From contig CM037585.1 in the NCBI GenBank assembly GCA_021018995.1, forward strand, positions 127,438,831-127,502,830: 64,000 bases of DNA, written 5' to 3'. A program made the translations under genes and the position numbers. Origin of the DNA: Chloranthus sessilifolius. Its lineage: Eukaryota; Streptophyta; Magnoliopsida; Chloranthales; Chloranthaceae. This document shows positions 1,561 to 63,762 of this stretch, in pieces. Numbering within the stretch: position 1 is the first letter of the stretch; each line of letters opens with the position of its first letter. The notes beneath the pieces were generated by a model. It worked only from the letters and a program-made list of their open reading frames with translations. It was not told where the DNA came from and did not search any database.

Positions 1561-2130
1561 TCGAAATTCAGAATCGATTAATCGAGATTCAAAACTAGGT
1601 TAAGCCGCCTAAAATCGATTAATCGAAAGTCAAATTCGATTAATCGAAACCATTTCGATTAATCGAAATCGTATCTATTTAAAATTTTAAATTGATTAAT
1701 CGAAATCCATTTCGATTAATCGAAATTCGAAAATCGATTAATCGAATTTAATTTCGATTAATCGAAATCGTGCTGTAACTTCTAATTTTCTAGAATTTCT
1801 TAAATTATTCGATTAATCGAAATTTCGAAATCGATTAATCGAAATCCACTTCGATTAATCGAAATCGTCCTTTTGATTTCAAATTCTCGTAAGTCCTTTT
1901 TGTAAATCGATTAATCGAAATATAATTCGATTAATCGAAATTTCAAAATCGATTAGTCGATTCCAAATCGATTAATCGAGATTCCAATTCGATCAATCGA
2001 AATTGGTCTTCTGTGTATATTCTAACTCTCTTTTAAATTTCCAGTCACTGGCACATGCCAGTCGACTAATCGAACAAAATCGATTAATCGAAATTCCAAA
2101 TCGATTGATCGATTTGAAATTCGATTAATT
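1561..2130. repeat. Array of spaced 12-bp palindromes (TCGATTAATCGA)
   Basis: About 14 exact copies of TCGATTAATCGA plus one- and two-base variants (TCGATTAGTCGA, TCGATCAATCGA, TCGATTGATCGA). Neighbouring copies are mostly separated by 8-10 bp of A/T-rich spacer, giving a period near 21 bp. It lies between the end of pol and the TATA box of ORF3. Confidence 0.95.
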
Positions 2131-2327
2131 GGTTTTGTCCAATTTCTGTAGAATTTCAATCTCTTTATTTCTTTAATTTCTTTTGGTAGTTTATGACATC
2201 AAGTGGTTCATCCATAGAGTTGTATATACTTGACCATGTACGTATAATTCTGTTCCTCAAATCAGATTGGATCAACTTTTCCATTTAATTACACGTATAG
2301 TGGAGATTTCACAAACATGTTTGTGGT
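2131..2327. other. Non-coding joint between pol and palindrome array
   Basis: About 200 bp of A/T-rich sequence after the pol stop. I see no polypurine tract, LTR end or TSD here. This supports continuity of one element rather than a junction between two. Confidence 0.5.
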
Positions 2328-5300
2328 TTACATTGAATTCTCACGATTTGGAAACAAGGTCGGATATTGTTCTCTCGCTCCTCTTTCCCAAGTAGCCTCT
2401 TCTTTTGGATGATTATTCCACCGAACAAGCACTAAGGGAATCACTTTAGTGCGCAGTACTTGTTCCTTTCGATCCAAGATTTCTACTGGTTCCTCTATCA
2501 TGCTCATGTCCTCACACATCTCTATAGGTTGCTGTCCTAATACATGAGACGGATCATTCACGTACTTTCTGAGCATCGATATGTGGAAAACATTATGCAC
2601 TCGATCAAATAGCGGTGGTAAACCAACGCGATATGCAACTTCACCTACTCGTCCCAAAATTTCAAATGGTCCAACATAACGTGGACTTAACTTCCCTCTC
2701 TTGTCAAATCTCATTACACCTTTCATAGGTGACACTTTCACAAACACATGCTCGCCCACTTTATAGTCAACACTAGTCCGCTTCATATCGGCGTAACTTT
2801 TCTGTTTACTCTGTGCTGTCTTCAACCTTTCTCTGATAATTCGGACAACGGTGGCGTTGTCTTCAAGTAGTTTTGGTCTTAACACAAATTTTTCACCTGT
2901 TTCCTCCCAATTGAGGGGTGATTTACATCGTCGTCCATACAGAGCTTCATACGGTGCCATGCCAATGCTCGTTTGGAAACTATTATTATATGCGAACTCG
3001 AGCATTGGTAGATACTCATCCCAGTATCCTTGCATATCAAGCATGCATGCCCTGAGCATGTCTTCTATTACTTGGTTCACTCGCTCTGTCTGCCCATCAG
3101 TTTGAGGATGGAAAGCTGAACTAAAGTCGAGTTGTGTTCCCATTCCTTCTTGAAATTTCTTCCAAAACTTGGACGTATATAGTGGATCACGATCTGAAAC
3201 TATGCTGCTTGGAATACCATGTAATCTTACAATCTCCTTCATGTATAAGTCTGCCAATCTTCCTGCCGTATACGTAGTATTGTACGGCAAAAAGTGCACT
3301 GATTTGGTCAATCGGTCTACGACGACCCAAATGGCATTCTGTCTCTTGGCAGTACGGGGTAATCCAACAATGAAATCCATTGAGATCGATTCCCACTTCC
3401 ATTCTGGTATTGGTAAAGGTTGCAATAGTCCAGCAGGATGTCTATGATCAACCTTCACCTGCTGACAAGTCAAACACCGTGACACGTACTTGGCCACGTC
3501 TTGCTTCAGTCCTCTCCACCAGTAGTTCTTTTTCAAATATTGGTACATTTTGGTGCTACCAGGGTGGATAGCATAATTTGACTTATGGGCCTCATCAAGA
3601 ATCGTTCGTCTTAGGTCGACATTGTCCGGAATGCATAGACGGCCCTTAAACAATAAGGAACCATCTTCTTTTAATGAGAAGTCCGACCTAATGCCTTCAC
3701 TCACGTCTTGATGAATCTTTGTTAATGCCGGATCTTTCATCTGTAGATCGTGGATATGTTCAAATATCACCGGCTTTACTGATATGTTAGCCAAAAAGGA
3801 TCCAGTGTCCTTTGACTCAATGCTCGCATCATAGAGTGCCAGGTCTTCCAATAATTTCCATCGGTGCATACCCAAAATCAAAGAAGCTAACTGAGCTGAA
3901 CCTTTCCGACTCAATGCATCGGCTACTACATTCGCCTTGCCAGGATGGTATTGTATGGAGCAATCATAATCCTTGAGGAATTCCATCCACCTGCGCTGTC
4001 TCATGTTGAGCTCTTTCTGTGTAAACAGATATCGGAGGCTCTTATGATCGGTGAAAATTTCAAAAGTCTCACCATACAAGTAATGTCTCCAAATCTTCAG
4101 CGCAAAAATGACTGCTGCCAGTTCCAAGTCATGAGTCGGGTAATTTTTCTCGTGTTCTTTCAGCTGTCTTGATCCGTAAGCTATCACCTTCTTGTGTTGG
4201 TTGAGCACACAACCAAGGCCATTGTATGACGGGCGTATCCTCCATCACTCAAGGAATCGCTATCGAGTCGAAGTGAGTCTCATTTTGAGTTCTTGAAAGC
4301 TCTTCTCGCATGCCTCACTCCACTCAAACCTTGAATCTTTTCGTGTCAGCTTTGTGAGAGGTCCCGATATCTTTGAAAACCCCTCAACGAAACGTCGATA
4401 ATAGCCTGCTAAGCCCAGAAAACTTCGGACATCGGTCACTGTCTTTGGTTGCTCCCATTTAACTACTGCTTCTATCTTAGCTGGATCTACTGTGACACCG
4501 TGCTTTGAGACGACATGCCCCAAAAAGCTAACTTCTTCCAACCAAAACTCACACTTGCTGAGTTTGGCGTACAATTGGTGTTCACGTAGCGTCTGTAGAG
4601 CAATCCTCAAATGTTCTTCGTGTTCCATCTTGGATTTGGAGTATATTAGTATATCATCAACAAACACTACGACGCAGGAGTCCAAGTGTGGTTTAAACAC
4701 TCGGTTCATCAAATCCATAAACGACGCCGGAGCATTCGTTAATCCAAACGGCATCACAAGGAATTCATAGTGTCCATACCGTGTCCAGGAAGTCATCTTA
4801 CGAATGTCCTCGGCTTTGACTCGAATCGATGATACCGGATCTCAGGTCGATCTTGGAAAAATACTTTGCTCCTTGCAGTTGGTCGAATAGATCGTCAATT
4901 CTAGGAAAAGGGTAGCGGTTCTTCACAGTGAGTTTGTTCAATTGTCGATAGTCAATGCATAGCCGCATTGACCCATCCTTCTTCTTGACAAACAAGACCG
5001 GTGCTCCCCATGGAGACACACTCGGTCTAACAAACCCCTTGTCCATAAGCTCTTGTAGTTGTTCCTTCAACTCCTTTAACTCAGCGGGAGCCATTCTCTA
5101 AGGTGCTTTTGAAATAGGCTCCGTTCCTGGTGCTAAGTCAATGGCAAATTCTACTTCTCTTTCTGGAGGTAATCCAGGCAATTCCTCTGGAAACACGTCA
5201 GCGAAGTCTCGCACAACTGCTATCTCAGAAATGACATTCTTTTCTTCCTTGTCCTCCTTTAAGAAAGCTAAGTATCCACTGCAACCCTTTCTGATCATTT

Positions 5301-5729
5301 TCTCGGCCCTTACTGCTGAGATCAGTGGCACAGATGACGACCTCACTCCTTGAAACCGAAATGATCTTCTTGTGTTGGGTCTGAAAATAACTACCTTGTT
5401 CTTGCAATCGACGGTTGCACAATGCTGCGCCAACCAGTCCATGCCAAGGATCACATCAAACCCTTGCATGTCTAACAGTATCAACTTTGCTTCTAGTTCG
5501 TGCACCTCTAAGTCTCGAACTGCTACAATAATGGATTTGCAAGCTAACTCCGTGTCTACTAACTCTCCAGTCGGAATAGACACAGATAGGACGAAATCCA
5601 ACGTCTCTGGAACAATCTTCATCTTCTTAGCGAAACGTGGAGTAACGAATGAGTGGGTAGACCCGGGGTCTATCAACACTCGAGCGTCATATCCACCGAA
5701 GCATCCTTTTTCATATATATTTAGAGTAC
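2328..5729 (-). pseudogene. pol: Tekay pol: protease, RT, RNase H, integrase, chromodomain (broken)
   Basis: The protease segment (5729-5098) has the aspartate motif LIDPGSTHSFV and an LGMDWL motif. It is followed by RT with [20 protein letters not shown], a MPFGLTNAP block and the FVDDILIYS catalytic box (about 4650-4690). RNase H has [14 protein letters not shown] and [10 protein letters not shown]. The integrase has an HH-CC zinc finger (RCLTCQQ), DDE residues in [14 protein letters not shown] and QTERVNQ, and a C-terminal chromodomain ending [13 protein letters not shown]. Breaks: a stop at about 5098 where a Tyr is usual; two nearby one-base losses near 4800-4830; and a disrupted stretch at 4208-4265 that removes the first catalytic-Asp region of RNase H. 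The last 626 codons, covering most of RNase H and all of integrase, remain open. Confidence 0.9.
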
Positions 5730-5903
5730 CTATAGTATACATACATACATACATAATTTACACATCAATTTACACTCTTAATTCACATACAGCTTCTTGT
5801 ATTGAGAAAAGAATCTATATAATTTCTAATGCATGCTCCTTCTCTATCTAAAATTTTAATGAAATGGAAATTTTCTTTAATTAAGAAAAAAAAAATATCT
5901 CAC
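5730..5903 (-). other. Intron-like 174-nt GT-AG segment between gag and pol
   Basis: Gag coding runs up to CAAG at 5904. A GTGAGA donor follows on the minus strand, then a very A/T-rich stretch with stops in every frame, ending TATAG at 5730. Protease coding resumes at the next base. Removing exactly this interval places gag and protease in one frame at the point where such elements are normally continuous. Splicing is inferred; a later A/T-rich insertion is the alternative. Confidence 0.55.
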
Positions 5904-7239
5904 CTTGGATGACGACGTTCCTCGCTTCTGCTGCATAGGCTCTCCCCTGGATGATCGGTTTCCTTGCTTGAATTGGTCGTGGTGCTGCAACTGAAACCGT
6001 CTTTCTCTTATCCGTCTCGGGGCAATCCTTGATCCAGTGGCCCACCGTCCTATGAGGCTTGCCACACTTTGCGCAAGTCTCCTGAGGTGCGGAAGAAATA
6101 GTACGAGAACCCTGTGTGATAGTGGCGCCAGTAGACATGGCAGGGCTCTCATAGCGAATAGGTCTCCCCGACGCAAGCAATGGAAACCTCTGTTGGTGTT
6201 GTTGTTGTTGCGCCGGTCTTCCGAAACCCCCTTGGAACTGTGGTCTCTGATTCTGGGCCATGAACCTCGGCTTTTTGTTCACCGGTTCGTAGTGCCCCGA
6301 CCTTCCTTGTTCATTTCCTCCTCTCTGCTGCTCTCTCTGTCTATATCTATTTGTATTTTCTTCTTCGACCACTAGCGCTTTACTCATGACCTCTTCATAG
6401 GTCCTCAGCTGAAATGGAGCTACGCCTCCCCTAACCTCAGGCTTCAAACCTTGCTGAAACCTCTTGGACTTCATCACCTCAGTAGCGACGTAGTCCGGAG
6501 CAAAACGGGCAAGTCGTAGAAACTCTACCCCATATTCTCTCACTGTCATTCTCCCTTGTACTAACTGTAAAAATTATATCTCTAGTTGGTTCCTCACCAC
6601 TTCTGGAAAATATTGTTTGTTGAACTCCTCAACAAACTCCTCCCAAGTCCAAGGCAACTCTGGGGTCTCCTGAGCTAGAGTCCGTATCACGGACTTCCAC
6701 CAAGGCCCAGCCTCCCCATCCAACATGTAAGCTGCCCATCTCACACTCTCATCTTCCGTGCAAGTTAGCACGCTAAAGACTTTCTCCATCTCCATCAACC
6801 AGTTCTCAGCGGCCATTGTGTCTGCCTGCCCAGAAAATGAAGGAGGTCTCATCCTCCTAAACTCTGTAAAAGATGAGGGCACAGGCAACGCAGGTCCTAC
6901 AGGTGGTGTAGGTGGCTGCTGTTCTCTTGATGCATGAGCTGCAAAGGATGCGGCTTGTTGTGCCATGGCAGCTGCCATAGTCTCCATAGTGTGCATCATC
7001 CTTTGTCGCTCTTCTCTGTCTTCTTGTCTTTCTCTCAATCTTTCTTGTTCTCTTAGATCTTGATCTTGATGATCTCGATCTTCTTCATCACGCTGTCTAC
7101 TACTACTGCCCCCTGGGGCCTCAGTACCTCCTAAAGGCACTCTATTTGTAGGAGAGATGTAACCATCTCCACTACGTAGACTCCTCTGCTGGCCTCCCCT
7201 TGGTCGGCCTCTTCCTCTAGATGACATTTGCAGCTGCAT
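5904..7239 (-). pseudogene. gag: Tekay gag (one in-frame stop)
   Basis: The ATG at 7239 opens an Arg/Gly-rich N-terminus, then a Glu/Arg/Gln-rich helical stretch, then the retrotransposon gag core (AAENWLMEMEKVFSVL, WWKSV, FNKQYFPEVVR). A single TAA at 6574-6576 interrupts it, and the same frame continues without shift (MTVREYGVEFLRLARFAP, then a Gln-rich region). A zinc knuckle CAKCGKPHRTVGHWIKDC has CX2CX8HX4C spacing, longer between the second Cys and His than the classic knuckle. Gag would form the virus-like particle. Apart from the one stop it is essentially complete. Confidence 0.9.
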
Positions 7240-7312
7240 TTGAAACTAAAGTTTAGTAGCGAAAGCCCCTATGTTCGACGAAGAACCCTTGTTTAATTGC
7301 TAAAAGAAAATA

Positions 7313-7324: not shown

Positions 7325-7326
7325 AC

Positions 7327-9945
7327 TGTGACAGCCCGGATTTCGGCACCCCGAAACCCGTGCCATCAGCACGATCATCTTGACCGTGCCCTTTAGCTAA
7401 GTACGGAACACTGGTATATCAAGCATGCAAAAAGTATAATAAACGAGTTTACGGAATTTAAATCTATATTAATTAACTTCCCAAAAGACAGTTCTACCCT
7501 CATGCCTCTGCATGAATGGAGAATCGATCCGAACCATCGATGATAGAAATCATCACGGATGGTTCGTCCCAAAAGAATAATCCCAACTCCTTATGTACAT
7601 GGTTTAAAACAACAATCAAGGCTTGACATACCAAGCCGTACAAAAACCTCTCCAAAATCCCTCAAAGTGGCACAACGGAGTCCTCTAGAAGAAGTCCTCT
7701 GGAGGTGGCTCCAACTCTTCACCGGCCGCAAGGTCCCATCACGGATCGTTTCCGAAGCAAATGGCAATGCTAGTAGTGGACCATGACGTATAGTCTATAG
7801 GGTGAGCTACATCCTAGCTCAATAGGGAACAAACACGGTTGAACATATAAATTATAACTCACATATATTCCATGATATGCCATGCATGATGTATCTATGC
7901 AGTTGTTAATGAAACAGATTAAAAGCATTTCGTTTTACTGTTGATTACTTATATTTTCATTTACTCATGAATGATGCTGAGAAGGCCTAAAGCAAAACTT
8001 AAACTTTCAACTTAAGTAATCCCCGAGCAATATAGCATCGAGCCCCGATGAGATACCCATCATCGTCATCTATATAGACAGTTTTAACCCTATTCCCTCG
8101 GAATACAAATAGTACCCAAGCCCCTTTCCCCTTCTGATTCATGGCGGGGGTTCACTTGTCTCAATCAACACCCCTGGGGTGTGCGTACTATGTACGGATA
8201 AGCCTCCGCACTGGCCTACGGTTTCGCCGCCGTATCGGTCACGGATATCCTGCCGTGTCAGTCGTGGATATCCCGCCACGTCGATGGGGTACCCTATCAA
8301 ACCTCAAATAACAAAAATATCGGTGCCTTACATATAGTTATTCACCGTGTAAATGTGCTATCTTATATCAGTTAGGCCCTATCAAACATTATTCAATCCT
8401 TGGATACATCCCTGGGATGTATCCATTTACTTGCATCACACCTGATGCTCTTATCTCTTTACTTCTTCATCCCCTGGGGATGGCTCATTATGATTACTCT
8501 TATGGGTGTCACACACACACTTTTCACAAACTCTTAAGAAATAGACATTTGAATTGAGTTCTATATCACTACATACATGCTCTTGTAAAATAAAGTACAT
8601 GTTCAAGGTGTTCCCTACCTCAAGTCTTCATTTGTTCAATGCATCAAGGTCCCACGTGGCTCCTTGTGCACTAGTCCACACGTACCACCTATGGTACGAC
8701 ATAACAGGTGAAACACATCACAAAGGATGCAATAAAGAAGGTATAAGATCCTCCAAGAATCTTAAAGTCAAACCCAAAAGTCAACATAATTTATCTCAGT
8801 CGATTAATCGAATTCCAAAATCGATTAATCGAAGGTCAATATCGATTAATCGAAGCAATTTCGATTAATCGAAATTCTCCTTTTCGCAAAGTCGATTCTC
8901 GGTCAACAATGAGCTTTCATTCGACATCGAATCCAATTTCGATTAATCAAATTCTTCTTTCGCAAAGTAAATTCACTGCTCAAATGAGTGAGTTTTCATT
9001 CGACATCGAATCCAATTTCGATTAATCAAATCCTTCTTTTCGCAAAGTCGACTCTCGCCGAATAAATGAAGTTTTCATAAGTTGATTAATCGATTCCAAA
9101 TCGATTAATCAAAAAACTAAAATCGATTAATCGAAATCCCATTTCGATTAGTCGATTTTTCCTCAAGTCATTTCCTCCAACCCCTGGGGTCCACTGGAGG
9201 TTCTCAGTCGATTAATCGATCCCCAAATCGATCAATCGAAATCCAAGGTCGATTAATTGAAATCAAATTCGATTAATCGAAATCGGGGTCCTCTGACCTT
9301 TCAACTTCCTGGCCAATTTCGATTAATCGAAACCCAATTTCGATTAATCGAAATTGTCAGATTCAGCCCCTTTCGAGCTGTTCTTCCAAATCTTTTTCCA
9401 TACTTTTTCCTCTATTTTTCTAAGCCATTATCCTATGATTTTGACCCACATTCAACTACAACTTAACCCCTATAATCTATGCATTTTATTTACAAAAATC
9501 TTACCTTGAATAGATCTCAAGTTGATTTCAATCAAATAGTTGGAAGGCTAGGGTTTCCAGCTTTTATTCTAACGGATCCCTTGCGTTGAATCAGCCTCTT
9601 TAATACTTGAATCCTTCTTCCAATCACCCACAATAACTCCTTGCTTAATCACCCTCTTTACTCCTCTCTCTCTCTCTTCTTTACTTCTCTCTCAACTACC
9701 AAACATCTATTTTAGGGTTATTAAACCCTTTTATCCCTCTCCTAGTTTGTGTGTTGAGCACATGCACCTCAATAGGTGTATGCGACTTCATATTTACAAC
9801 ACACACCACGCAATAATTCAAACTATCACATCTCGTCCGTTCATTTCATCCTATACTAACTCTTGATCTCCTAATTGGTCAACTTGTGACCAATCGGGCA
9901 CGGATCCCGAGGTCATAGTTTAGCGTGATTTTTCGGGCTATTACA
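7327..9945 (-). repeat. 5' LTR of Tekay element (2619 bp)
   Basis: On the plus strand it opens TGTGACAGCCCGG and closes CGGGCTATTACA, giving TG...CA ends with near-inverted repeats. It abuts the PBS. A block near 7785-7825 (GACGTATAGTC..GGGTGAGCT) is shared, in the proper orientation, by all the Tekay-type LTRs in the window. On the minus strand a GGATAAAAGGG TATA-like box sits near 9735, with a CT/GA-rich stretch downstream. The palindrome array then lies in the transcribed leader. Confidence 0.85.
8800..9351. repeat. Palindrome array inside Tekay 5' LTR
   Basis: About nine exact TCGATTAATCGA copies plus variants. The first four (8800-8872) have spacers of 9, 9 and about 8 bp. CAAATC-type near copies and a 70-80 bp higher-order repeat with CGCAAAGTCGA lie between them (8880-9060). 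Confidence 0.9.
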
Positions 9946-11034
9946 ATTCTCAAAGTCAAACTAAGAAGTCAAGCGAAACTGTCAAAGTCGATTAATCGAT
10001 TCCCAAAATCGATTAGTCGAAATACAATTCGATTAATCGATTTCCAAACTCGATTAATCAAAACCCAAATCGATTAATCGACTCTCAAAATCGATTAATC
10101 GAGATTCAAATTCGATTAATCGATCCCAAATCGATTAATCGAGTTTACAACATATATGCAGTCGATTCTTAAATCGAGTAGTCGGGGTCTCAAAATCGAT
10201 TAATTGATCCCAAATCGATTAATCAAAATCCGAAATCGATTAATCGAAATTCCAATTCGATTAGTTGATTTCCTCAGGTTTCATTTCTCTAGTGGCTGGA
10301 GCTTCCTAGTCGATTAGTTGATTTCCAAATCGACTAATCGAATTCCAAATCGATTAATCGAAATTTATTTCGATTAATCAAAATCGGGATTCCATGACTT
10401 TTTAACTTCTCAGACCAAATCGATTAATCGAACTCCAATTTCGATTAATCGATTTGGTCAGATTCAACTTCTCCTATCTTCCAAATCTTTGTCAACCTAT
10501 TTTTCTTTCTTTTTCTAAGCCTTTATCCTATGCTTTTAAGCATTATTAACCACACTTAAACTTCTACAATCTATGCATTTAATTCCCATAAAATTTACCT
10601 CAATCAAGCCTCAATTTGATTGGATCTTAAAGTTGGAATGGCTAGGGTTCCAGCTTTAGCTCCAAAGGATCTTCCGCGTTGAATTCGACTTTAATACTCG
10701 AATCCATCTCCCTTGGCTTGCATTTTCTCCTTGCTTAACAACCCTCTTTACTTCTCTCCCTCTCTCTCTCTTCTTAATTCTTTCAACAACCAAACAAGAG
10801 TAAGTTAGGGTTCTTTAACCCTTTTATACTCATTTTCTATGTGTTGAGCACATACACCTCAGATGGTGTATGTGGTTTTAGGTTTACACTACACTCCACA
10901 CACACTTGCATCATTTTCACATCACATCCGTTCATCATCTCTTAAGTCAATTAGTGAACTCTTTGGTCAAACTTATGACCAGTCGGGCACGGATCTCGAG
11001 GTCATCGTTTAACGCAATTTTTCGGGATATTACA
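9946..11034 (-). repeat. Truncated second LTR of the same Tekay family
   Basis: It aligns with 8760-9945 from the AAAGTCAAAC segment through the array, the TATA and CT-rich region and the closing TCGGGCACGGATC...TTCGGGATATTACA. The proximal part of the LTR is missing. About ten exact TCGATTAATCGA copies lie at 9988-10452. It is either the remainder of an older LTR into which the adjacent element inserted, or a product of unequal recombination. Confidence 0.75.
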
Positions 11035-12726: not shown

Positions 12727-13264
12727 TCGATTAATCGATTTTGAAACTCGATTAATCGAGTTTTTGACAAGAGAGAAATTCGAGAGGAACTTCACGAAAT
12801 CGATTAATCGAAGAGAATTTCGATTAATCGATTTTGAAATTCGATTAATCGATTTTGAAAATCGATTAATCGAGTTTGCCTGGGCTTACTGACACTACTG
12901 TAGTATTTCAGCCATAACGTTTTGTGCCGAATTCGGATTGACGTGATTCTTGTTGCGTTGGAAAGAAGACAGAAAGCCCTACAACTTTTATGAATTGACC
13001 AACTTGTGAATCAATCGTTTTAAAGGTCAAAATTTAGTAATAAGTTAGGTAAAGTTCTAATTTTGTCGAGAAACGAAACCGATTAATCGAGTAAAATCGA
13101 TTAATCGATTTTTGAATTTCGATTAATCAAAATTGGGTCGATTAATCGACTGGTCTCAAATAGTGAAAAATATTTTTGTCTCTTTGAAAATCGATCAATC
13201 GAGATAAAATCGATCAATCGACTTTGGAAAATCGATTAATCGATTTTGAAAATCGATTAGTCGA
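12727..13264. repeat. Palindrome arrays in solo LTR
   Basis: Two runs (12727-12873 and 13079-13264) hold about nine exact TCGATTAATCGA copies plus TCGATCAATCGA and TCGATTAGTCGA variants. Spacers are 9, then 8, 9, 9 bp in the first run and 6-10 bp in the second. TTTTGAAAA-type spacers recur. Confidence 0.9.
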
Positions 13265-14590: not shown

Positions 14591-14633
14591 CTTTGGATTA
14601 TACCTCGTAAATCAAACCATAAGTCGTGAGATT

Positions 14634-15000: not shown

Positions 15001-15689
15001 TTTGATTGTGACATTGAATCTATGTTTCCTTATGATAAGATGTGAATGAGTATTGAAATTTCCTCTACTGAGCTAGGATGTAGCTCACCCCTTCGACTAT
15101 ACATCACAGGTATAGCTTCTACGTGGACACCAGACTTGCAGATTGAGGAATTGAGGAGGGCTATGATATTCGGGGTCGTAGATTGAGTACTTTGTGGAGA
15201 TTGGTGAGTTCAGACTTGGTACCCTTTGAACTCGCATATAATTTTATACACCACTGTTTGGTGACGTTGGTACATCACTGGTGGCCATTGTTAGTTATTC
15301 TAATATTAGATGTTAGAATTAGAGATTTATTCATGTCATATGTATTATCTGCTTTGATTTCTGCATGCTAGGTTTTGTACCAAGCATTCTGTGTTCGGAA
15401 CGTGTTCTACGACCCGACGGTCCGGGTTTTCCCATTCGTGTTTGAAAAAAAAAAAAAAAAAAAAAAAATGTCTCAAAATTCAGGTTGGGAAAATTCGGGT
15501 TGTCACAAGACTTTTATGAATTGTTTTCTGTTCAATTACAATCATATTGGTAGACTGTTGAGGAAGGACAATAGCCAGATTTATATATTCCTGGCAGGGT
15601 CAAAATATCGTCCAATACCGATACGTATCGGTTTTGGAAGTCAACGGTATGATACATAGGGTATGTATCGTACCCTATATAAATTACTC

Positions 15690-15870
15690 ATATTATCGCC
15701 CGATACGAGCAAAGTATCGCCTGTATCATCCGTATCGGACGATAATATCAAATTATCGGACGATAATTTCATATTATCGTCCGATAATTTAGAAAAAATT
15801 TAAAATTTTTGAAAGGCCTGAAATTATCGTACGATACGAATGATAATTTCAAATTATCGTTCGATAATTT
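15690..15870. repeat. hAT left subterminal palindromes (TATCGGACGATA family)
   Basis: Copies of TATCGGACGATA, TATCGTCCGATA, TATCGTACGATA and TATCGTTCGATA. The three consecutive copies in 15735-15790 are spaced by 9 and 9 bp, a 21-bp period. Related TACATTCAATGTA and GATACGTATC palindromes lie at the right end (20915-20995). In hAT elements such subterminal motifs are normally transposase-binding sites. Confidence 0.8.
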
Positions 15871-16117
15871 CAAAAAGTCTGTGGGCCCCACCCTTTGACC
15901 CAGCCGACTATAGGCTCGGGTTTTGGGTTTTTTTCCTCATTTTATGCATCTTCTCTCTTCTCCTCTCTTCTTCCTTCGTCTTCCTTCTTCCTCTCTTCTT
16001 TTTTGGTTATTTGTACCTACATCGCCGTCGAATCGCACAAAAAAATACGGGATCAATGCGAAAGGTACGTGTTTATCATTTTACTATCATTTTATTTCAT
16101 TTTAAATGCTAAAATAA

Positions 16118-16410
16118 GATAGATCTACCTTATTTATGGGTAGATCTACCTTATATAACGGTAGATCTACCTTATTTAAGGGTAGATCTATCTTATATAA
16201 GAGTAGATCTATCCTTAAATTTTATCATTTATCTATTATTTTAATTATTATAATTATTTAAATTATTTAAATTATTTTAGTATCTACAATTAAATATGGT
16301 AGATCTACCTTATATAAGGGTAGATGTAGCCATAAATTTGGTAGATCTACCATATTTAATGGTTGATCTACCTATAAATATGGAAGATCTACCATATTTA
16401 ATGGTAGATA
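16118..16410. repeat. 21-bp tandem palindromes GGTAGATCTACC in hAT leader intron
   Basis: Two runs (16118-16214 and 16298-16410) of the 12-bp palindrome GGTAGATCTACC and variants are each separated by exactly 9 bp. Spacers alternate between two A/T-rich kinds (TTATTTATG, TTATATAAC, TTATTTAAG, TTATATAAG). The runs lie inside the probable 5' intron of the transposase gene. Confidence 0.9.
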
Positions 16411-17340
16411 TTAAATTAATTAAAATAATTAAAATAATTAAAATTATGGGTCAAAAATAATATAAATAATTAAAATTATAGGTCATATGTAGTTAAAAGT
16501 ATGGGTCACAAAATAATTAATATAACTAATAAAATAATAGGGTCAATATGGGTCACATATAATTAAAATTAAATTTAATATGGGTCACATATAATATGGG
16601 TCACATATAATTAATAAAATAATAGGGTCAATATGGGTCACATATAATTAAAATTAAAATCAATATGGGTCACATATAATATGGGTCACATATAATTAAT
16701 AAAATAATGGGGTCAATATGGGTCACATATAATTTAAACTTAAAATTAATATAAGTCACATATAATTAAATTTATGGGTCACATATTAAATTATATGTGA
16801 CCCATATTAATTTTAATAATAAATTTAATTATATGTGACCCATATTAATTATATGTGACCGTCACATATAATTAAAATAATTAATATTATGGGATATGTC
16901 CCATAAAATATTAGAATAATATGAAATAAATTTAAAATAAATTTTTTAAAATTAGAATAATAGCAAATAAATTTTTAAAAATTAGAATAATATCAAATAA
17001 ATATTTAAAAATTAGAATAATATCAAATAAATATTCATAAATTAGAATAATATCAAATAAATATTCATAAATTATAATAATATCAAATAAATATTCATAA
17101 ATTATAATAATATCAAATAAATTTGGTAAAATATAATCTAATCTTTTAAAAATTAGACTAATATAAAATAAAATTTAAAATGTAATCTAAATTTTTTAAA
17201 AATTATAATAATATCAAATAAATTTTATAAAAATTAGAATAATATCAAATAAATTTAATAAAATATAATCTGATATTTTTAAAATAGTAATAATTAAAAA
17301 ATAAAATTTATTTTCAAGTATAAATTAGATGTTTAATTTA
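16411..17340. repeat. A/T-rich intron with two further tandem repeat families
   Basis: Repeats of TATGGGTCACATATAATTAA occupy about 16440-16870, including an inverted copy (ATATGTGACCCATATTAA) near 16790-16850. A 37-bp unit around TTAGAATAATATCAAATAAA runs from about 16915 to 17270. With a GTACGTG donor near 16064 and a TTCATGCAG acceptor at 17366, the interval reads as a 1.3-kb leader intron. Confidence 0.7.
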
Positions 17341-17381
17341 ATGCAATCGTTTGTTTATTCATGCAGGTGAAATAAATAAAT

Positions 17382-20300
17382 ATGGTACGATCGTCAGATC
17401 CTTCATGGCAATACGGTACACCAATAGATGGTGATAGACTCCGGATACAGTGTAAGCTTTGTAGAAAAAAACTGCTAGGAGGAGGTATCACACGGTTAAA
17501 GTAGCATCTGGCTCACGTAAAGGGAGAAACAAAAGGGTGTCCCAGTGTACCTAGAGAAGTAAAAGAAAATATCAGAGCTAATTTACAAGCGGCAAAGGGA
17601 AAGAAAAAAGCTGAAGCCAATCATGATAGGAAAATGTATGAGAGAATCAGGAGGGCAGATCCAGAGTTTACGTCACCTGGACCTGAGGATGATGAGGATG
17701 AGCAGATAGCGAGAGCTATGAGAGAGAGTGCCAGAGAATCACAACGGTGGCGAGATCAGGAAGAAGCTGATTATCGGTTTCGGTCTAGGTTGAGGGGCCC
17801 ATGCCTGCTACCGGTGGTGGATCTAGTCATAGGCCACATGTTATTGATATTGATGAGGATGTTAAGCGGTCCGGGTGAGGTCGATCCCGGAGGGATTATA
17901 GGTCAGTCTACTAGAGGCCGACATGGATCCATTCATGTATCGCACTGAAAGCTCCAAACAAACCAAATTAAGTGCAATCTCACTTACAAAAATGGGGAAG
18001 AAGCTTGGAAAATTCATTGCCAAGTTTTTTATATACAACCACATTCCAACCAGAGTAGCAGCGTCGTCGTACTTCAAAAGCATGATTGATACAAGTGCAG
18101 AAGTTGGTCAAGGAGTTAAAAAGCCTTCTACATGTGAGATATCTGGGCCCTTACTAAACGATGAGTACGATGAGATAACTGCCTATGTACAAAGCTTTGA
18201 GGATGTATGAGATGAGAGAGGTTACACAATTATGTGCGATGGATGGACTGGTCCCACAAAGAAGAGTTTGATCAACTTTTTAGTTTACAGCGATGCCGGA
18301 ATGATTTTTGAAATCGATTGATGCTTCTGAACACGTAAAATGGATTACCTCTTTCAACTAATGGATAAGGTAGTTCAAGAGGTTGGAGAGCAGCGGGTTG
18401 TGCAGGTGGTAACGGACAATGCGGCAAATTACAAATCCGCTGGATTAAAACTAATGATGAAGAGACGTCACCTGTACTAGACCCCGTGTGCCGCTCATTG
18501 CGTGGACCTCATTCTTGAGGATTTAGGAAAGAGAAGCAAGGCACAAGCAACTATTCAGAAGGGAAGAACGATTACTTTCTACCTGTACAACAGTGACAAG
18601 TTGGTCAATTTAATGAGAGCCTTCACGAACAATGAGTTGCTCCGACCTGCGATTACACATTTTGCAACATAGTTGTTAGCCCTATAGAGTTTGGCTAGAT
18701 ATAGGCGTGAGCTGAAAAACATGGTGTCGTCGGAAGAATGGAATAAACATGAAATAGGACTCCCACGAGCAAAGAGACTAGCTTGTACTGAAGTTCTTTG
18801 ACTGATCTGACGACGCGGCTTTGGGCAGATGTCGACCACCTGATCGTCGTCACTACCCCGTTGGTGCAAGTGTTGAGATTGGTTGATGGTAATGAGAAAC
18901 CAACGATGGGATACTTTTATGAGTCAATGAATAAGACAAAATTAGCTATAAAAACCAAATGCCCTACAAAATATAAACGATACTGGGCGATTATCGACAA
19001 GAGGTGGGATGCACAATTTCACCAGTACTTGCATGCAGCAGGTATAACATGTTAAACTGCTTATGTAGTGATTTTTATTTATTTATTCATTATTTTCATA
19101 TACTGATGAAATTGCTCATATTTGATGTGTAGCACACTACTTGAATCCAGCCTTCTAGTATACGCGACACTTCGAGCTGAGTGACACTGATGAAGTGTAT
19201 ACCAGTTTGCTCAATGTAATCCAAAGAATACTCCCTAAGTTGGCGGACCAAGGTCAAGCCATAAGAGATGTGAGTAATCATAGTATCATACCTTATAACT
19301 AATAAGTCAAATGTCATGTGATATTATCATCTATTTATTAATATGTGCCTTACTGTGTTTCATCTTTATAGATTGACATATTTCGCAAGAGACATGGGTC
19401 ATTTGGAACCCCATTGGCGCAATCCCAAATTAAACACGACAATCCCGCTGATTGGTGGATGCATTATGGAGGTGATGGTCCGATATTGAGGCGGGTAACA
19501 ATAAGGGTGTCGCAAACATGTTCCTCGTCCAACTGCGAGCGAAATTGGAGCACTTTCTCTCTCATTCATACTAGGACAAGGAATAGACTAACTATGGATC
19601 GATTGGAAAAGTTAGTTTACTGTCACTACAATATGCGATTAAGGGTCAGGAATATACAGAGGACCAACCATGGTAAGCAATTATATGAAGTCTTAGATCC
19701 TCAATTATATGAAGTCTTACTTACATATTATACTAATTTATCTATCATTTTCTACCTTGCAGATAGTGAATATTTTGTTCCCATCTATTTAGATTATATA
19801 TTCGAGGAGGATGACCCTTTGAATCAATGGATCGAAGAGAGAGAAGAGCCAGTCTTTGATACTGAGAGCATTGAATGGTTGGACAATGCTGAAAGAGTAG
19901 TGGAGCAGCAGGCTTTCCAACCACCGAGACGGAAAAGAAGATTGAATCGTCATTCAGTGGTTGGATCTGATGACGAAACACAGCCCGGTAGTGATGATGT
20001 GAGTGGTGAGGATGATGGTGGAGGGCATGATGGTGGAGGGGATGTTGGCACTAGTGGTGGAGAGGAGGATGCTGGTACCTCTGATCCTTATAGAGATATG
20101 GCGGCATGGGATGATGACTCGACACCGTTAACACAGTTCGACACGCCTACATTTAGAATGGGAGGGGTTGAAGGAAGAGGTGCGTCGGAATCATATAAAA
20201 TACCACCACCACCACAAGGTCTACAAGATGATACGGATATGGGTTATATGACTTCTAGCTTCGGGGGATTCAGTTTGCAAAATTTTGAAGATTCAGCAAC

Positions 20301-42001: not shown

Positions 42002-42130
42002 GCAATTCACATGGTCGAGCTATCGACATTAAACTAGCGCTCATTGGGAGGCAACCCAATTTTGTGTAATTTATTTTTGGTTTTTTGTTTTTCAAAAAAA
42101 AAAAAATTCTCGATTAATAAAAAAAAGAGG

Positions 42131-44085: not shown

Positions 44086-44193
44086 TCGATTAATCGAGGC
44101 TTATACTCGATTAATCGACCACTTTTTTTTTTTTCCCAAAGCAGCCATAATTTGGGGAGTCGATGCATCGACCCCCTAGGGTCAATTAATCGA
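44086..44193. repeat. Palindrome pairs between ORF3 and ORF4
   Basis: A TCGATTAATCGA pair with a 9-bp spacer, then TCGATGCATCGA and TCAATTAATCGA with a 10-bp spacer. Confidence 0.95.
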
Positions 44194-45105: not shown

Positions 45106-45182
45106 TCGATCAATCGACAATGAGGGTCGATCGATCGACCATTCACTCTCGATCAATCGACCTCTTCGAGTCGATCAATCGA
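45106..45182. repeat. Palindrome array after ORF4
   Basis: Four units (TCGATCAATCGA, TCGATCGATCGA, TCGATCAATCGA, TCGATCAATCGA) with spacers of 9, 10 and 10 bp. Confidence 0.95.
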
Positions 45183-46890: not shown

Positions 46891-47575
46891 TACACATGCG
46901 TTCAATTACAAATCATACTTCAAAGCTTTCATGTTTTCCAAAACAGTTACAAAACATTCTTTTATATCACATTATCTATGAATAAAATCAAAAATGCAAT
47001 TAGATGGTGAATTTCTCCTACCTTAACCTCGACGCAGCACGAAGCCAAGCGAAGCTCTATCTATGGTCTTTCCATCCTCAATCTACATCACAACATACCA
47101 TGTATTAAAGACTAACTCTAGTTACTAGAACTTAGACATCCATAAATGTTTCTCAACACGAGGCAGAAACGGACAAGTTCATGCTAATATGAAATTTAAT
47201 GTAACTTCTCATAAACTTTTAACCTTTAAAATTTTAGATTCATAAGTTATTCAAAACATAAAAATTGTAGATCTCGAAGTCATCTTTCCAACGCAATAAG
47301 AATCGCATCAATCGGAGTTCAGCACAAAATGTTATGGCTAAAATACCGAGACTATATTGGTACCTCAGTCGAAACGCGCCAACTCAAACTTGATGTAACT
47401 TCCCTCCCAATTTTTACCTTTAAAATATTTGATTCATTGATTTTAATATACATGAAAGTTGTAGGTCCAGTTGTCCTCTTTCCAACGCCTTATGAATTAC
47501 CTTATTCCGAGTTCGGAACAGAAAGTTATGGCTAAAACACCGAAGCACTGTCGGCACGCACAATCAAATTCGACC

Positions 47576-47744
47576 GATTGAAATCTAATTTCGATCGATT
47601 GAATTTGAAACTCGATCGATCAAAATCCATTTCGATTGATCGAATTTCAACAGAAGTCCATGACACTCCCTGTTCTATACCTTTCGATCGATCGAATTTG
47701 AAACTCGATCGATCGAAATCCATTTCGATTGATCGAAAACCACC
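47576..47744. repeat. Palindrome array in nested solo LTR
   Basis: Six to seven TCGATCGATCGA/TCGATTGATCGA units with 9-bp spacers (TTTGAAAC- and ATCCATTT-type). The core here is CGAT rather than TTAA, unlike the other Tekay LTRs. Confidence 0.9.
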
Positions 47745-49731: not shown

Positions 49732-51510
49732 TGATGAGCAGTGAAATATGATGATATTTCACCCCTAAATACCTACATTTAGCTATCCGATGAAGGCTAT
49801 CTGATGAGAATTACTAGATTTAAAGTGTTTTAGGTAAATACAATCCAAGTACAAAAAACTGCCCAAGAATTCTGAAAATAATGTCAAAACACTGCAACTT
49901 TGGGTCATCAAGAACTTTGTACGACTTGCAGCTCCATTTGAATTATTAAGACGTCAGATTCACAAAATTTCCAAAACACAAAAGTTGTAGAGTTTTCTGT
50001 CCGCTTTCCAACACCATAAGAATCATATCAATCTAAGTTCGGAGTAGAAAAATATGGCCAAAATACTGAAGCAGTGTCTGATGCAAAAGTGGGCTGGAAT
50101 TCACAAAAATCTGGGAAGGTCGATTAATCGACTCTTTTGATCGATTAATCGAGGCACATGGAATAGTCTGACACGGAAGTGACTTTAAAGTAGATTTTTA
50201 GGGATTCTTTGGAGGGTCAATGCATCGACCCTGACTTTTCGAGCTGGGAAGCCTATGCAATTTGGAAACTATTTAAACCCGAACCAACACTTCGAGAGAG
50301 GATAATTTTTAGAGAATTAGAGTTTTTATTTTTTAGAGTAGACGTAGAGATAGAGATTTTTTATTCTTTTTGAGAGCTTGGTTCCTTTAATCTTTTCAGT
50401 ATTCCTTCCTTCAATTTATTATTTTTGTTCAGTTGATTCCTACTTTAAATTTAATGATTAGTAAAGAGCATTGTTAATTTCGTTTCTAAAGATCATCGTA
50501 CGTGTGGATCAAATAATTTTCTATTGAAGGTTGAAGTATTTTTATTTAATTAAATTGATGTTATTTTTCATTCCTTATTTATTTATGTCATTTAATTACA
50601 GCATGTGTGGCTAATTTGTTAGGGATGAGGATCTAATGATTCCCATCCGAGGGATGCACTTCTAATAATATAAATTTAGGATTAAAATATGAGATCTTAT
50701 TTTATGGTTGTTATGTTATCACGAATGGATGAAATTCCCGCCACTAACTGGGATCGAGTGTGCCGAGCCATACCCTGGATCTCAAATCTGTAACGATAAT
50801 TTTATCCCAATCATTGTTATATGGTCCTTTTGCTTTCATCGTGTGGATTTACTTACGATTATGATCTGGGATCGAGTGTGCCGAGCCATGTCCTGAATCT
50901 TGGATCTGTAATAGTAATTTTATCTTAATTACTCCCTAATATGAAATCAAGTGTGCCAAGCCATGCCCTTGATCTCAGATCTATGGTGGTATTCTTATTA
51001 AAAAATTTACCCACTTTGGGAATGATTTTTATTTGTATCTGAGATCAAGTGTGTCGAGCCATGCCCTTTATCCTAAATCTATATATGAAAATCATCTCTG
51101 AAGTTAAGTCCTGATTGCAGGGATGCAACGTGGAACCTATCAGGGTTTTGACCATTTATCTTCCATAAAAGATTTGTTTCAATGGTATATCTCATAGTTT
51201 AATCCTTAGATTTGTATTATGGGAAGAATAGACCAAAGATGGGAGGATTTAGTATCTCCATCTTTACCTTTATTTTTGAATTATCATTTAAGTTTCAGTT
51301 TGTAGTCAGTAATTATCATCTTATCAAACCACCTAAATCATAAGACTGGTAGAATACTGTTAGTTCTTGCTAGATTTCTTGAATTGCTGTCTCATCTTTT
51401 TAAATCTTTCAAAATAGTCCTCGTGGGAACGATCTCGGACTCTGCACCCACTATCTATAATCTGATTCGTGCGCTTGCGAGTAAAACATCACAATTAAAA
51501 ATTCACATCA
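49732..51510 (+). repeat. Athila 1 3' LTR (1779 bp)
   Basis: It is homologous end to end with 34183-35971 and begins TGATGAGCAGTG. It has the palindrome pair at 50119-50151, where the second copy keeps TCGATTAATCGA, and a TCAATGCATCGA variant at 50217, then TATTTAAA at 50270. It ends CATCA followed by the TSD TGCTT. Confidence 0.95.
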
Positions 51511-55742: not shown

Positions 55743-57134
55743 TGATGAATAGTGAAATATGATGATATTTCACCCCTAAAGACTTACATTTAGCTATCCG
55801 ATGAAGGCTATCTAATGAAATTTGTGAAGTTTTCTGAGTTTCAGGTGACATTGGCCATTGGATGCAGTAAGGAGTATAAAAGAACGCAAAGTCAAATAAA
55901 CACCGAAATTTTACAGCAAACTCTAACCATTTGTTATGTCGATCAATCGACCCATTAAGGTCGATGCATCAATATAACAAACTCAAAGTCAAAGTCAAGC
56001 TTAGTCGATTGATCGACCACTTGAGTCGATCAATCGACTAAATTCGAAACTTGAATTCCGGATCTGAGAGATATTAAAAGAGAAAAATTTGGGGATTCGG
56101 AGATATCCTCTTCGTGTGCATTTTTTCTGTTTTAGGCTTTGAGAGTTTTAGAGAGGGCATTTAGTCCATGTGGTTCGAGTTTTCTAGTTTTCATTTCCTA
56201 GCTTTAGATTGGAGATTAGTTTAATTTTTGCATTCAAGAAAGGATTGAACGCATTGGATCAAAGCTTTTATGGATTTTTGTGGATCATTCTTTACGGAAT
56301 TTTAATGTCATTTTCAATTTCTGTTTTTATTTTGTTATTTATTTCAATTATATGTGGCTAGTTTTATTAAAGATGGGGATCTGATGAACCCCATCTGAGG
56401 GAGTCATTTATATTAATACAAATCTGTGATTGAGATGTCAGATGCTTTAAAAGGCCCTAATGTTGTTATTGATAATGGATATAATCCGATTGCAAGTTGA
56501 GATCTAGGAGCTAATTATACCCTATGATTTCAGATTTATAATAATGATTTTATCCTAATTATTACCCATCTCGGGGTCAGGTTTTACTACCATCTGAGGT
56601 GTGAGTGTTAATTATACACTAATGGGATGTTAATCATACATCTCCTTGATCTTAGATCAGTAGTTTGGAATCTACCTAGAGATTGAGTTCAGAGTATTGT
56701 CTGAGGTGCGAGTGTTAATCACACACTCATGAGATGTTAATCATACATCTCCATGATCTCAGATCTATACTTTAGAACTCACGTGTGTTTCGGGCCGGTG
56801 CTTCTTTTTAGATATCTTTTAAAGATCTCACATCTCAATCCATAGATTTGTATTTCACAAATGATAAACCTACGATGGGAGGATTTAGTATCCCGATCCT
56901 TATCTTTTATAATCTGTTTAAATTTTAATTAGGTTAGTGCTTATCTCATTTTCCAAATTCTTAAGTTTTTAATTTAGAAAATACTGTGATAGATCTGTGG
57001 TAATTTTTTTGGTTAATTGCTATTTCTGATTATCATTTCCTAACTAATCCTCGTGGGAATGATCTCGTACTCCACACCCACTATCTGCAAACTGATTCAT
57101 GCACTTGCGAGTAAAACACATTTAAATCACAACA
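55743..57134 (+). repeat. Athila 2 5' LTR (1392 bp)
   Basis: It starts TGATGAATAGTG and ends AATCACAACA before the PBS. Two palindrome pairs lie at 55939-56041 (TCGATCAATCGA/TCGATGCATCAA with a 10-bp spacer, TCGATTGATCGA/TCGATCAATCGA with a 9-bp spacer), upstream of a GATATTAAAAG TATA-like box near 56068. Confidence 0.9.
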
Positions 57135-57271: not shown

Positions 57272-57485
57272 TCGATCGATCGACCTAAACCATCGATCAT
57301 TCGACTCCAAAAAATCCATAGATTTTTCCTTCGTAATCTTTGATTTTTGAAACTGAACTTAAAAAAAAGGGGGGGGGGGAATTTTTGAATTTTGAGTTTT
57401 GATACTCAATTGATCGACCTAAGCCCTCGATCAATCGAAGACTCTTTGATCGATTGATGGACCTAAACCATTGATCAATCGACTC
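57272..57485. repeat. Palindrome pairs in Athila 2 leader
   Basis: Three pairs based on TCGATCGATCGA and TCGATCAATCGA. The first two have 9-bp spacers (CCTAAACCA, CCTAAGCCC); the third is degraded. Confidence 0.9.
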
Positions 57486-62200: not shown

Positions 62201-63225
62201 GGCCAATAATTTTCAAGGACCGTCACCAGCAATGCATGCCGTGTAGCAATTGTCAAATGTTAGAAAGAATTTCAAAGATAAACATGATGCCCTTAAATCC
62301 AATTCTTGAAGTTGAAGTGTTCGATGTATGGGGAATAAACTTCATGGGCCCATTCTTGAATTCTTTTGGGAATTCATACATCATCATTGCAGTAGATTAT
62401 GTTTCAAAATGGGTCAAAGCAATGGCCTGCAAATCTAACGATCACAAGGTGGTTGTTAAAGTCCTTAAGAATGAGGTTTTTTCGAGATTCGGTACTCCAC
62501 GTGCTATTATTAGCGATGGTGGAAAGCATTTCTGCAACAAAGTTTTTGCTCAGGTAATGAAAAAGTACGGGATCACGCACAAAGTGTCTACACCGTACCA
62601 CCCTCAAACCAGTGGACAAGTTGAGATTTTTAATCAAGAGATAAAATGCATTTTAGAGAAAACGATAAAGCCTAATCGGAGAGATTGGTCGTTAAAATTG
62701 AACGATGCACTTTGGGCTTATCGGACAACATTCAAAACTCCCATTGGAATGTCACTATTTAGGATGGTTTTCGGTAAAGGTTGTCATCTACCAGTTGAGT
62801 TAGAACACCGTGCTTATTGGGCTATTAAGTCTCTGAATTTTAATTTGCAAAAAGCGGGTGAGAAGCGATGCTTAGAAATTGCTGAATTGGAAGAACTAAG
62901 AGCTGATACTTATAACTGTGCAAAATTATACACGGATTGCATAAAGCGTGCCCATGATCAGCTCATTTTAAGAAAATCATTCACTGTGGGTCAGAAGGTG
63001 TTGTTATACAACTCACGACCTCATTTGTTTCCAGGGAAGCTTAAAACCCGATGGAATGGTCCATTTCATATAAACCGGATATTTATGAATGGAGCAATTG
63101 AACTCTGCAATCTGTGGAATGGGGGAACATTTTGAGTCAACGGGCAACGGGTGAAACCATTTCTCGAAAATGTCATTGAAAATTTTGATGAAGTTGTGTT
63201 AAGCGATCCCGATCAATCGGGATGA
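59275..63225 (+). pseudogene. pol: Athila 2 pol: protease, RT, RNase H, integrase (seven in-frame stops)
   Basis: A Glu/Lys-rich linker precedes the protease, whose catalytic LLDLGASVNLLP is intact, unlike in Athila 1. TAG falls at 60448 and 60754. RT has CIDYRKLN, PFGLCNAPATF and FMDGFSIHG; the second catalytic Asp of the box is Gly here. RNase H and integrase follow, with stops at 61480, 61780 and 61906. Integrase then stays open from 61909 to 63135 ([31 protein letters not shown]), with TGA at 63133 before the final 30 residues. There are no large deletions, and most damage is single-base. Confidence 0.92.
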
Positions 63226-63327
63226 AATTAAAAATTTGGGGATGTTGGGCTAGCGACACTAAATTTAGTGCTTTTTGGGAGGCAACCCAAGTAAAAAAAA
63301 ATAAAAATTAAAAAAAAAAAGGTTTGG

Positions 63328-63762
63328 TCGATCGATCGCCTTCAAACCTCGATTGATTGGCAGTATGAACACTGGTCGATCAATCCCAATTTCCTTGATC
63401 AATCGATATTTATTTTCGTGACATTAACTGTCACGCCTTTTTAGTGCGATATTTTATTCAGTCGATCAATCGTTGTGGTCAGTCGATTAATTGACCTAAT
63501 CGTTGCTGTTTTCAAGGAAAATTAACTGTCACATCTTTTCATACGCTACATGCGCCGTCCTCGATCAATCGACCTTTAGTACACCTATTGACGTAGCATT
63601 CCAACTCTTGGGGAAGCGCTGCATGTCAGTGTCGATCGATCGACCCCTCTAGGTTGATGTATCGGCATTCATTGAAGTAACGGGTGCTCTTAAATGCCTT
63701 TATGTCGCGCCTTTTCCATGTTAACGTCAATCGATCGAACTATACAAGTCGATCGATCGACG
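63328..63762. repeat. Palindrome pairs between pol and ORF3 of Athila 2
   Basis: At least five pairs with TCGATCGATCGA, TCGATCAATCGA and variants, spacers 7-10 bp. The last pair (about 63728-63761) ends some 40 bp before the TATTTAAA box, as in Athila 1. Confidence 0.9.

Follow-up and report, generated by a model that had tools for sequence, protein, structure and literature searches.

The window analysed here, a 64-kb stretch of DNA from the plant Chloranthus sessilifolius (64,000 nucleotides; contig CM037585.1, positions 127,438,831 to 127,502,830 of the forward strand), is retrotransposon-rich and plant-like, as judged from its Pfam matches. It contains a chromovirus-like element on the minus strand, another family of long terminal repeats (LTRs) at 11.7-15.5 kb, a hAT transposon and two Ty3/gypsy elements that we take to be Athilas (Athila 1 and Athila 2). 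The retrotransposons carry arrays of short palindromes, above all of the 12-mer TCGATTAATCGA and its close variants. We describe these arrays and argue that they are probably docking platforms for a DNA-binding protein.

We found 56 exact copies of TCGATTAATCGA in the window, close to the ~55 that the initial annotation of this DNA had counted by hand. Fourteen of them lie at 1574-2091, nine at 8800-9351, ten at 9988-10452, nine at 12727-13243 and 14 in Athila 1, for which only six had been listed before. When up to one mismatch was allowed outside the two central bases, the number of these TCGATTAATCGA-type sites rose to 120, with 117 inside 14 arrays and three elsewhere; chance alone would give 2.85 in the entire window. 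As the limits of the arrays were set post hoc, with the sites already known, the informative count is that of the three sites outside, where the unit occurs at chance level.

Neighbouring sites keep a characteristic distance. In the window, TCGATNNATCGA neighbours no more than 25 bp apart formed 72 pairs, all at 18-23 bp with a mode of 21 bp (18 bp, 2 pairs; 19 bp, 9; 20 bp, 14; 21 bp, 32; 22 bp, 13; 23 bp, 2) and none at 12-17 or 24-25 bp. When similar 12-bp near-palindromes were paired de novo, 71 pairs fell at 19-23 bp, nine of them not TCGATTAATCGA-type; 20 first-order Markov shuffles, each done in 2-kb blocks, averaged 0.0. This strong excess at 21 bp over shuffled sequence, a comparison that the initial annotation had called for, bears out its claim of centres ~21 bp apart with variable spacers: among sites with at most two mismatches, 75 of 82 spacers were distinct, and their lengths ranged from 6 to 11 bases. 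At the base adjoining the motif, extra symmetry in most arrays was close to what base composition predicts, or under it. The palindrome arrays are real.

In the chromovirus-like element, separate open reading frame (ORF) pieces on the minus strand (2328..7245) matched Pfam families for gag, protease, reverse transcriptase (RT), RNase H and integrase of the Ty3/gypsy kind; the chromodomain match was weak and fell below the cut-off. A Met-type primer-binding site (PBS, one mismatch) at 7313-7324 adjoins the putative 5' LTR, LTR a (7327..9945, minus strand, limits by eye), which carries an array at 8800..9351. The neighbouring LTR b (9946..11034, minus strand) belongs to the same family but is older, truncated and ~75% identical, and its array (9988-10452) is in register with that of LTR a. 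A further array (1553..2132, with 21 TCGATTAATCGA-type sites at up to two mismatches) lies between integrase and P0001, an ORF of 447 codons that runs to the window edge (2..1343, minus strand); the TATA-like box TATATA (1540..1545, minus strand) starts eight bases past the last palindrome. We infer, short of proof, that P0001 and the pol pieces at 2328-7245 form one element, because strand and order agree, the motif is shared and no LTR start sequence lies between them.

Athila 1 is bounded by LTRs at 34183-35971 and 49732-51510 (Kimura two-parameter distance, K2P, 0.07) and has arrays in both LTRs, a leader array past the PBS and three more between pol and the 3' LTR. The array in the 5' LTR (34571..34679) is followed 42 bases on by TATTTAA at 34721, and that in the 3' LTR (50120..50228), again 42 bases on, by TATTTAA at 50270. 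The leader array (36104..36175) lies past the PBS at 35978. Between pol and the post-pol ORF (42780..43829, plus strand) stands the first linker array (42110..42599), with TATTTAA at 42641, 42 bases on. The second (44086..44193), which has no TATA-like box within 150 bp, is upstream of a short ORF (44438-44725, 95 codons), and the third (45106..45182) has CA and CG centres. That short ORF, located after the post-pol ORF, had no Pfam match. Athila 2 extends from ~55.7 kb to past the window end, and its arrays occupy places matching those of Athila 1: in the 5' LTR (55939..56037, TATTAAA 35 bases on), in the 5' leader (57272..57482) past a PBS-like site with two mismatches at 57141, and after pol (63328..63760, TATTTAA at 63803), the window stopping before any post-pol ORF can be read. 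The observed features that bear on the Athila lineage are Ty3/gypsy domains, an LTR pair, a PBS and an ORF resembling PF20167, the last of these also seen in Athila of sunflower; the name itself follows the initial annotation for both elements rather than an RT tree. In both Athilas a stretch antisense to the gag ORF (36869-36975 and 58069-58175, minus strand) matched Rfam snoR71 (RF00097) above the gathering score; either this Rfam family overlaps gag of Athila, or gag conserves a stretch like a snoRNA, both being possibilities only.

The LTR-like unit at 11719-15506 (plus strand) holds two arrays (12727..13264), each followed by a copy of a 167-bp block, and a second copy of this LTR family (45731-48571, minus strand, limits by eye) holds an array with CG and TG centres (47562..47742). 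The 167-bp block is present in six copies (34363-34529, 49912-50078, 12891-13057, 13282-13438, 47387-47552 and 47194-47352) and is shared, in inverted orientation, between the LTRs of the Athilas and the family at 11.7 kb; a palindrome site lies within 42 bp of it in five of the six. A 60-bp tandem repeat of 7.6 copies (14132-14583) also lies inside the unit at 11719-15506.

We then asked how well the sites are kept relative to the DNA between them. LTRs a and b (ends at 9945 and 11034, both minus strand) are 74.6% identical over 875 columns, and their ten sites pair by their offsets from a shared anchor, which differ by 0 (four sites), 1 (two), 12 (two) or 13 (two), so that no aligner is needed. 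In these ten orthologous 12-mers 111 of 120 bases agreed, and all nine differences were transitions, whereas only 56 of 79 bases agreed in the stretches between the sites (Fisher p 1e-4; all ten sites and the 6/9 inter-site stretches of equal length were taken). As bases within one array are not independent, the p values are indicative only. In the co-linear part of a MAFFT alignment of the same pair, agreement was 104/108 in the palindromes, 97/143 in the 9-bp flanks and ~0.73 in the rest, and in the full, less co-linear alignment it was 103/108 and 103/120 in the palindromes and 78/118 and 87/140 in the flanks; sites were defined in one LTR each time, and the co-linear counts sum both directions, with sites exact in both LTRs counted twice. 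The Athila 1 LTR pair alone, with two sites per LTR, gave 20/20 in the sites versus 24/27. Self-matches shorter than 120 bp were dropped from the self-comparison of the window.

These data bear on a simple alternative in which slippage multiplied a 21-bp unit and the palindrome itself does nothing. Tandem Repeats Finder does report units of 20-21 bp, and a faint consensus remains in the 9-base spacers. Tandem duplication alone, however, does not explain why sites are kept better than the DNA between them; nor does it fit the diversity of the spacers in sequence and length or the recurrence of the same 12-mer with different spacers in different families. The initial annotation had named two outcomes that would refute its reading, the lack of an excess at 21 bp over shuffled controls and, as a sign of such duplication, spacers as conserved as the palindromes. 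Neither was seen, and its expectation that palindrome bases outlast spacers held at the ten sites of LTRs a and b. For the TCGAT arrays, simple tandem duplication is largely refuted, and we consider it very improbable as a general account.

The hAT transposon (15598..21030, plus strand, ends by eye; PF05699 above cut-off) appears to be a different case, and slippage fits its GGTAGATCTACC run fully. Its ends, GGGTCAAAATA and TATTTTGACCC, were also identified by eye, and TATCGNNCGATA units occur near the left end with one near the right end. In its left part, GGTAGATCTACC forms two runs with a strict distance of 21 bp within each and with related spacers, so ordinary tandem repetition is enough there, and the case for the 21-bp palindrome pattern is weaker in this element. 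A hAT transposase domain, inverted repeats at the termini and repeat units close to each end are all present, as subterminal repeats of hAT elements require. The hAT arrays are probably a separate and ordinary phenomenon, either subterminal or tandem repeats.

What is kept within the palindromes is chiefly the half-sites. Both Athilas share TCGAT and ATCGA with the chromovirus-like element and with the LTR family at 11.7-15.5 kb, while the two central bases vary (TA, CG, CA/TG, GC) and are mixed even within Athila 1. Between the homologous arrays at 12.8 and 47.6 kb, 36/40 half-site bases were kept but only 1/8 centre bases (flanks 26/44, rest 126/185); the centres are TA in 12 of the 14 sites at 12.7-13.3 kb, and CG in four and TG in two of the six sites at 47.6 kb. 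In five other array comparisons, with one to four sites each, half-sites were kept at 38/39, 30/30, 10/10, 28/30 and 10/10 bases and centres at 6/8, 4/6, 1/2, 3/6 and 2/2, so the centre effect is clear for the 12.8 versus 47.6 kb arrays only. Since half-sites are kept and centres are not, the unit is best written as TCGAT-NN-ATCGA with a switchable centre. Athila 1 has mostly TA centres and Athila 2 has CG, CA and TG. The palindromes had been described as family-specific, which is true, though not strictly, of the mixture of centres but not of the half-sites, which the families share, and the 45.1 kb array of Athila 1 itself departs from TA. Of two further units said to follow the same arrangement, ACCGGT was not found at 21 bp, the 12-bp near-palindromes including just two TGGACCGGTCGA, 64 bp apart. 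CTCGC..GCGAG fared better, with two neighbour pairs at 22 bp, but its five units (at least 8/10) were partly copied by a 93-bp duplication; a weaker sixth unit, seen by eye at ~31217, would give a third pair. Nor do the arrays match the DOWN motif known from mutants of the plant mobile domain, which reads CATGCAGTTT in one of the promoters.

The position of the arrays suggests a link with promoters. We searched for TATA[AT]A, TATTTAA or TATTAAA within 60 bp after an array, in ten arrays first and in six more later. Such a box followed seven of the first ten, compared with 7.3% of random 60-mers from the window; the misses were both leader arrays and the 44.1 kb array, and one of the seven matches, the 45.1 kb array, has no known ORF downstream. 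All four arrays on the ORF side had a box, starting at 8 bases in the chromovirus-like element, 9 in a relic locus described below, 42 in Athila 1 and 43 in Athila 2 (ORF presumed). The distances of 42 and 43 are not independent because the two ORF regions are homologous. In both Athila 1 LTRs the array-to-TATA distance, counted from a third, imperfect site, is 42, equal to that at the Athila 1 ORF, and the LTR stretch bears little resemblance to the ORF regions by eye. A place ahead of a TATA-like box, either that of an LTR promoter or that of a likely internal promoter of a post-pol ORF, is the main anatomical feature of many arrays, one that the initial annotation had not mentioned.

The ORFs downstream of these arrays are related to one another. 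P0001 matched PF20167 ('putative plant transposon protein', Transposase_32) with E 2.9e-7 and 31.0 bits, and the Athila 1 post-pol ORF did so with E 3.1e-8 and 34.1 bits; both lie under the curated cut-off of 45 bits and are distant relatives rather than formal members of the family. They match each other with E 6e-9 and 27% identity over 194 positions. A search of the window with P0001 found, besides itself, two relatives and one further match at the level of chance (E 0.93). One relative is a broken copy at 31.7-32.5 kb (E 2e-30), whose pieces (31587..32826, plus strand) are 28-48% identical to P0001 and have no PF20167 match themselves. At this relic locus, imperfect CTCGCNNNNGCGAG units with neighbours 22 bp apart (31124..31345) stand before TATATA at 31354 and the broken ORF, so an array lies just upstream at all three PF20167-like or P0001-related loci. 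The first 25 residues of P0001 include eight K/R and no D/E, and its highest 19-residue hydropathy is 0.69, where the usual threshold for a membrane helix is ~1.6. In Athila 1 the first ATG read past the TATA box, at 42730, does not share the frame of the ORF, which indicates that this copy is broken or spliced there. Neither DUF1985 nor DUF287 was detected in P0001 or the Athila 1 ORF by hmmscan at E up to 10, which returned PF20167 and one chance match. The protein collection, presumed to hold few plant sequences, gave no homologue of the ORFs (E <=0.001 among 1366 candidates; E <=10 among the best 8000). None was confirmed in viral contigs (three pattern matches) or found among solved structures, and the viral contigs also lacked the array pattern, plant sequences again being presumably few in these sets, so that such negatives carry little weight.

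We propose that the arrays serve these Ty3/gypsy retrotransposons as docking platforms for a dimeric, sequence-specific DNA-binding protein, a reading that the kept palindromes, the two-turn distance and the frequent proximity to promoters make quite likely. One dimer would occupy each palindrome through the half-sites TCGAT and ATCGA, and neighbours two helical turns apart would place successive dimers on one face of the DNA, where they could bind jointly and the letters of the spacer would matter little. In the Athilas the arrays could serve two promoters, that of the LTR, from which the genomic RNA would be made, and a TATA promoter, probably internal, of the post-pol ORF; the presence of arrays at both suggests joint control. 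As binder we favour the product of the PF20167-like post-pol ORF, which would recognise its own family and activate both promoters, and which might also keep them unsilenced by analogy with VANC. We prefer it because arrays stand upstream of three copies, P0001 is basic at its N-terminus and lacks any membrane-like stretch, the sunflower counterpart is predicted to be nuclear and VANC provides a precedent. The complete proposal, with this product as the preferred binder, seems to us evenly poised, and a binder encoded by the elements is in itself a possibility that we rate somewhat below even.

Several observations weigh against this proposal. The whole analysis covers one window of one genome. 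The phase between separate runs was not convincing at a helical period of 10.5 (R 0.25, p ~0.14), and the best of 13 periods tried was 12 bp (p 0.03). No TATA-like box lies downstream of any of the five arrays in chromovirus-like LTRs, and by eye the arrays of LTRs a and b sit downstream of TATA-like sequence; over all 16 arrays checked a box was present in eight, two of which are the two LTRs of one element. The apparent array-promoter link is thus strong in the two Athilas and at post-pol ORFs, but chromovirus-like LTRs do not show it. CpG was not significantly better preserved in the motifs than outside (31/40 versus 33/53, p 0.17), nor was it in the Athila 1 LTRs (8/8 versus 44/67, p 0.10). 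No DNA-binding domain was recognised in the ORF products, and the Athila 1 ORF contains a 19-residue stretch with a mean hydropathy of 1.75, about the membrane-helix threshold, and has no basic start in the part read. Moreover, the relic ORF is the closer relative of P0001 (28-48%) but is accompanied by CTCGC units, whereas the Athila 1 ORF (27%) shares TCGATTAATCGA with it. Motif sharing thus runs opposite to ORF similarity, a weak argument from three ORFs that favours a host factor or an exchange of arrays.

Could a host transcription factor bind the arrays instead? Unrelated retrotransposon families would then have converged on its sites or exchanged them, like LTR enhancers, and the ORF product would not be the binder. 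The occurrence of one 12-mer in the chromovirus-like element, the other LTR family and Athila 1, two of which have only distantly related ORFs, is consistent with this, and the inverted sharing of the 167-bp block, with a site within 42 bp in five of six copies, makes an exchange of arrays between families plausible. In addition, four Sireviruses without ENV still carry the LTR boxes, according to the available part of PMC2829016. On the other hand, the switch of centres from TA to CG across an array between related LTRs would be odd for one fixed factor, and beyond the arrays, in sequence whose gene content was not measured, the motif is no more frequent than chance predicts. We regard a host factor as a genuine contender, if one with the balance against it.

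A further alternative is that the sites act as hairpins in RNA or single-stranded DNA, neighbours pairing into 12-bp stems that feed small RNAs (sRNAs) or shape the leader. Such stem-loops, already envisaged in the initial annotation, could form physically, the RNA of 42100-42660 having a folding z of -11.7 relative to 100 shuffles, although good folding is expected of any palindrome array. The palindrome motifs of maize Copia (Sirevirus) LTRs are described as sRNA mapping hotspots in the accessible text of PMC5311732. Specific support was not found here, as neighbours were complementary at 10.93 of 12 positions compared with 10.82 for random sites of the same array, a value that 10% of resamplings reach. 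Of the seven neighbour pairs with asymmetric centres, four, all in Athila 2, have complementary TG/CA centres and three are identical. Hairpins predict neither the 18-23 bp spacing nor the array-to-TATA distances, and we consider this explanation improbable.

The closest known counterpart is found in the Sireviruses. In 13 of these elements palindromic repeated motifs occur in the LTR, and in the nine that bear ENV they occur also in the linker (Bousios 2010, PMC2829016), 77 of 79 linker copies being upstream of ENV; the available text, which does not cover Ty3/gypsy, calls the motif Sirevirus-specific relative to other Ty1/copia elements and suggests a regulatory role. These repeated motif (RM) boxes are described there as 10-20 bp long, element-specific, present at 8-32 per element, located upstream of the LTR TATA box and forming CpG islands. 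The arrays described here resemble them, as far as that text goes, in being palindromic repeats of the LTR and the region upstream of the post-pol ORF that are kept while flanks diverge. Athila 1 has 14 exact copies, above the eight or more that mark an RM-box element, and the sites are better conserved than the DNA between them (111/120 versus 56/79); the placement in the LTR and upstream of a post-pol ORF is seen in Athila 1, in the chromovirus-like element and, with the ORF presumed, in Athila 2. Their hosts are Ty3/gypsy by domain order and Pfam whereas Sireviruses are Ty1/copia, so they work alike without being members. Relative to the RM boxes as the available text presents them, the arrays also differ in their presence in 5' leaders, their 21-bp register, their PF20167-like post-pol ORF and their TCGAT/ATCGA half-sites in place of a CGG-CCG core, which the Sirevirus Tnd-1 lacks too (PMC2829016). 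The arrays are of the same kind as the Sirevirus motifs, now in Ty3/gypsy elements, with the 21-bp register and the leader location added. Among the matches listed (titles and the starts of abstracts, few subscription papers being covered) there was no earlier description of such arrays in Athila or chromoviruses.

Other systems share parts of this arrangement. In mechanism the nearest is VANC21, one of the anti-silencing VANC proteins of VANDAL transposons, which binds arrays of the motif YAGTATTAY that lie in one orientation (PMC5735166). VANDAL elements offer, in the parts of the reports available, non-coding motif arrays confined to transposable elements (TEs), motif switching between relatives and an element-encoded partner, for which there is a candidate here (PMC5735166, PMC10398659); they are DNA transposons rather than LTR elements, their motifs are not described as palindromic in either text, and VANC carries the DUF1985/DUF287 that P0001 and the Athila 1 ORF lack in our search. 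In sunflower, the Athila 3' ORF has partial similarity to Transposase_32 (PF20167) and is predicted to be nuclear (PMC11728184). Our elements share such a post-pol ORF, a relative of which is present also in the chromovirus-like element, while the accessible sunflower account describes no palindrome arrays or DNA target (PMC11728184). Retand combines, between pol and the 3' LTR, TRP28 (PF04195) antisense ORFs with tandem repeats (PMC11963269). It is alike in that an additional ORF, whose product may bind DNA, accompanies element-specific repeats downstream of pol, but its ORFs are antisense and of another Pfam family, and its repeats are not described as palindromic promoter-side sites in the available text (PMC11963269).

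An envelope function of the extra post-pol ORFs of plant LTR elements, whose host cells are walled, is described as highly controversial in the available part of PMC2829016. Should LTR and ORF promoters share the same palindrome platform, the ORF product would be a candidate binder open to direct test. Two LTR superfamilies, Ty1/copia in the Sireviruses and Ty3/gypsy here, would then have arrived at comparable designs with two promoters. With a host factor as binder, the arrays would instead reveal a regulator of the plant of which several TE families take advantage. A broader generalisation, which we offer tentatively and think unlikely as it stands, is that the 'envelope-like' post-pol ORFs of plant LTR elements (Athila, some chromoviruses and, by analogy, Sireviruses) encode, rather than envelopes, self-recognising nuclear DNA-binding proteins with co-evolving arrays that mark their own LTR and their own promoter, a counterpart of VANC in which the 21-bp register would be the footprint of cooperative dimers.

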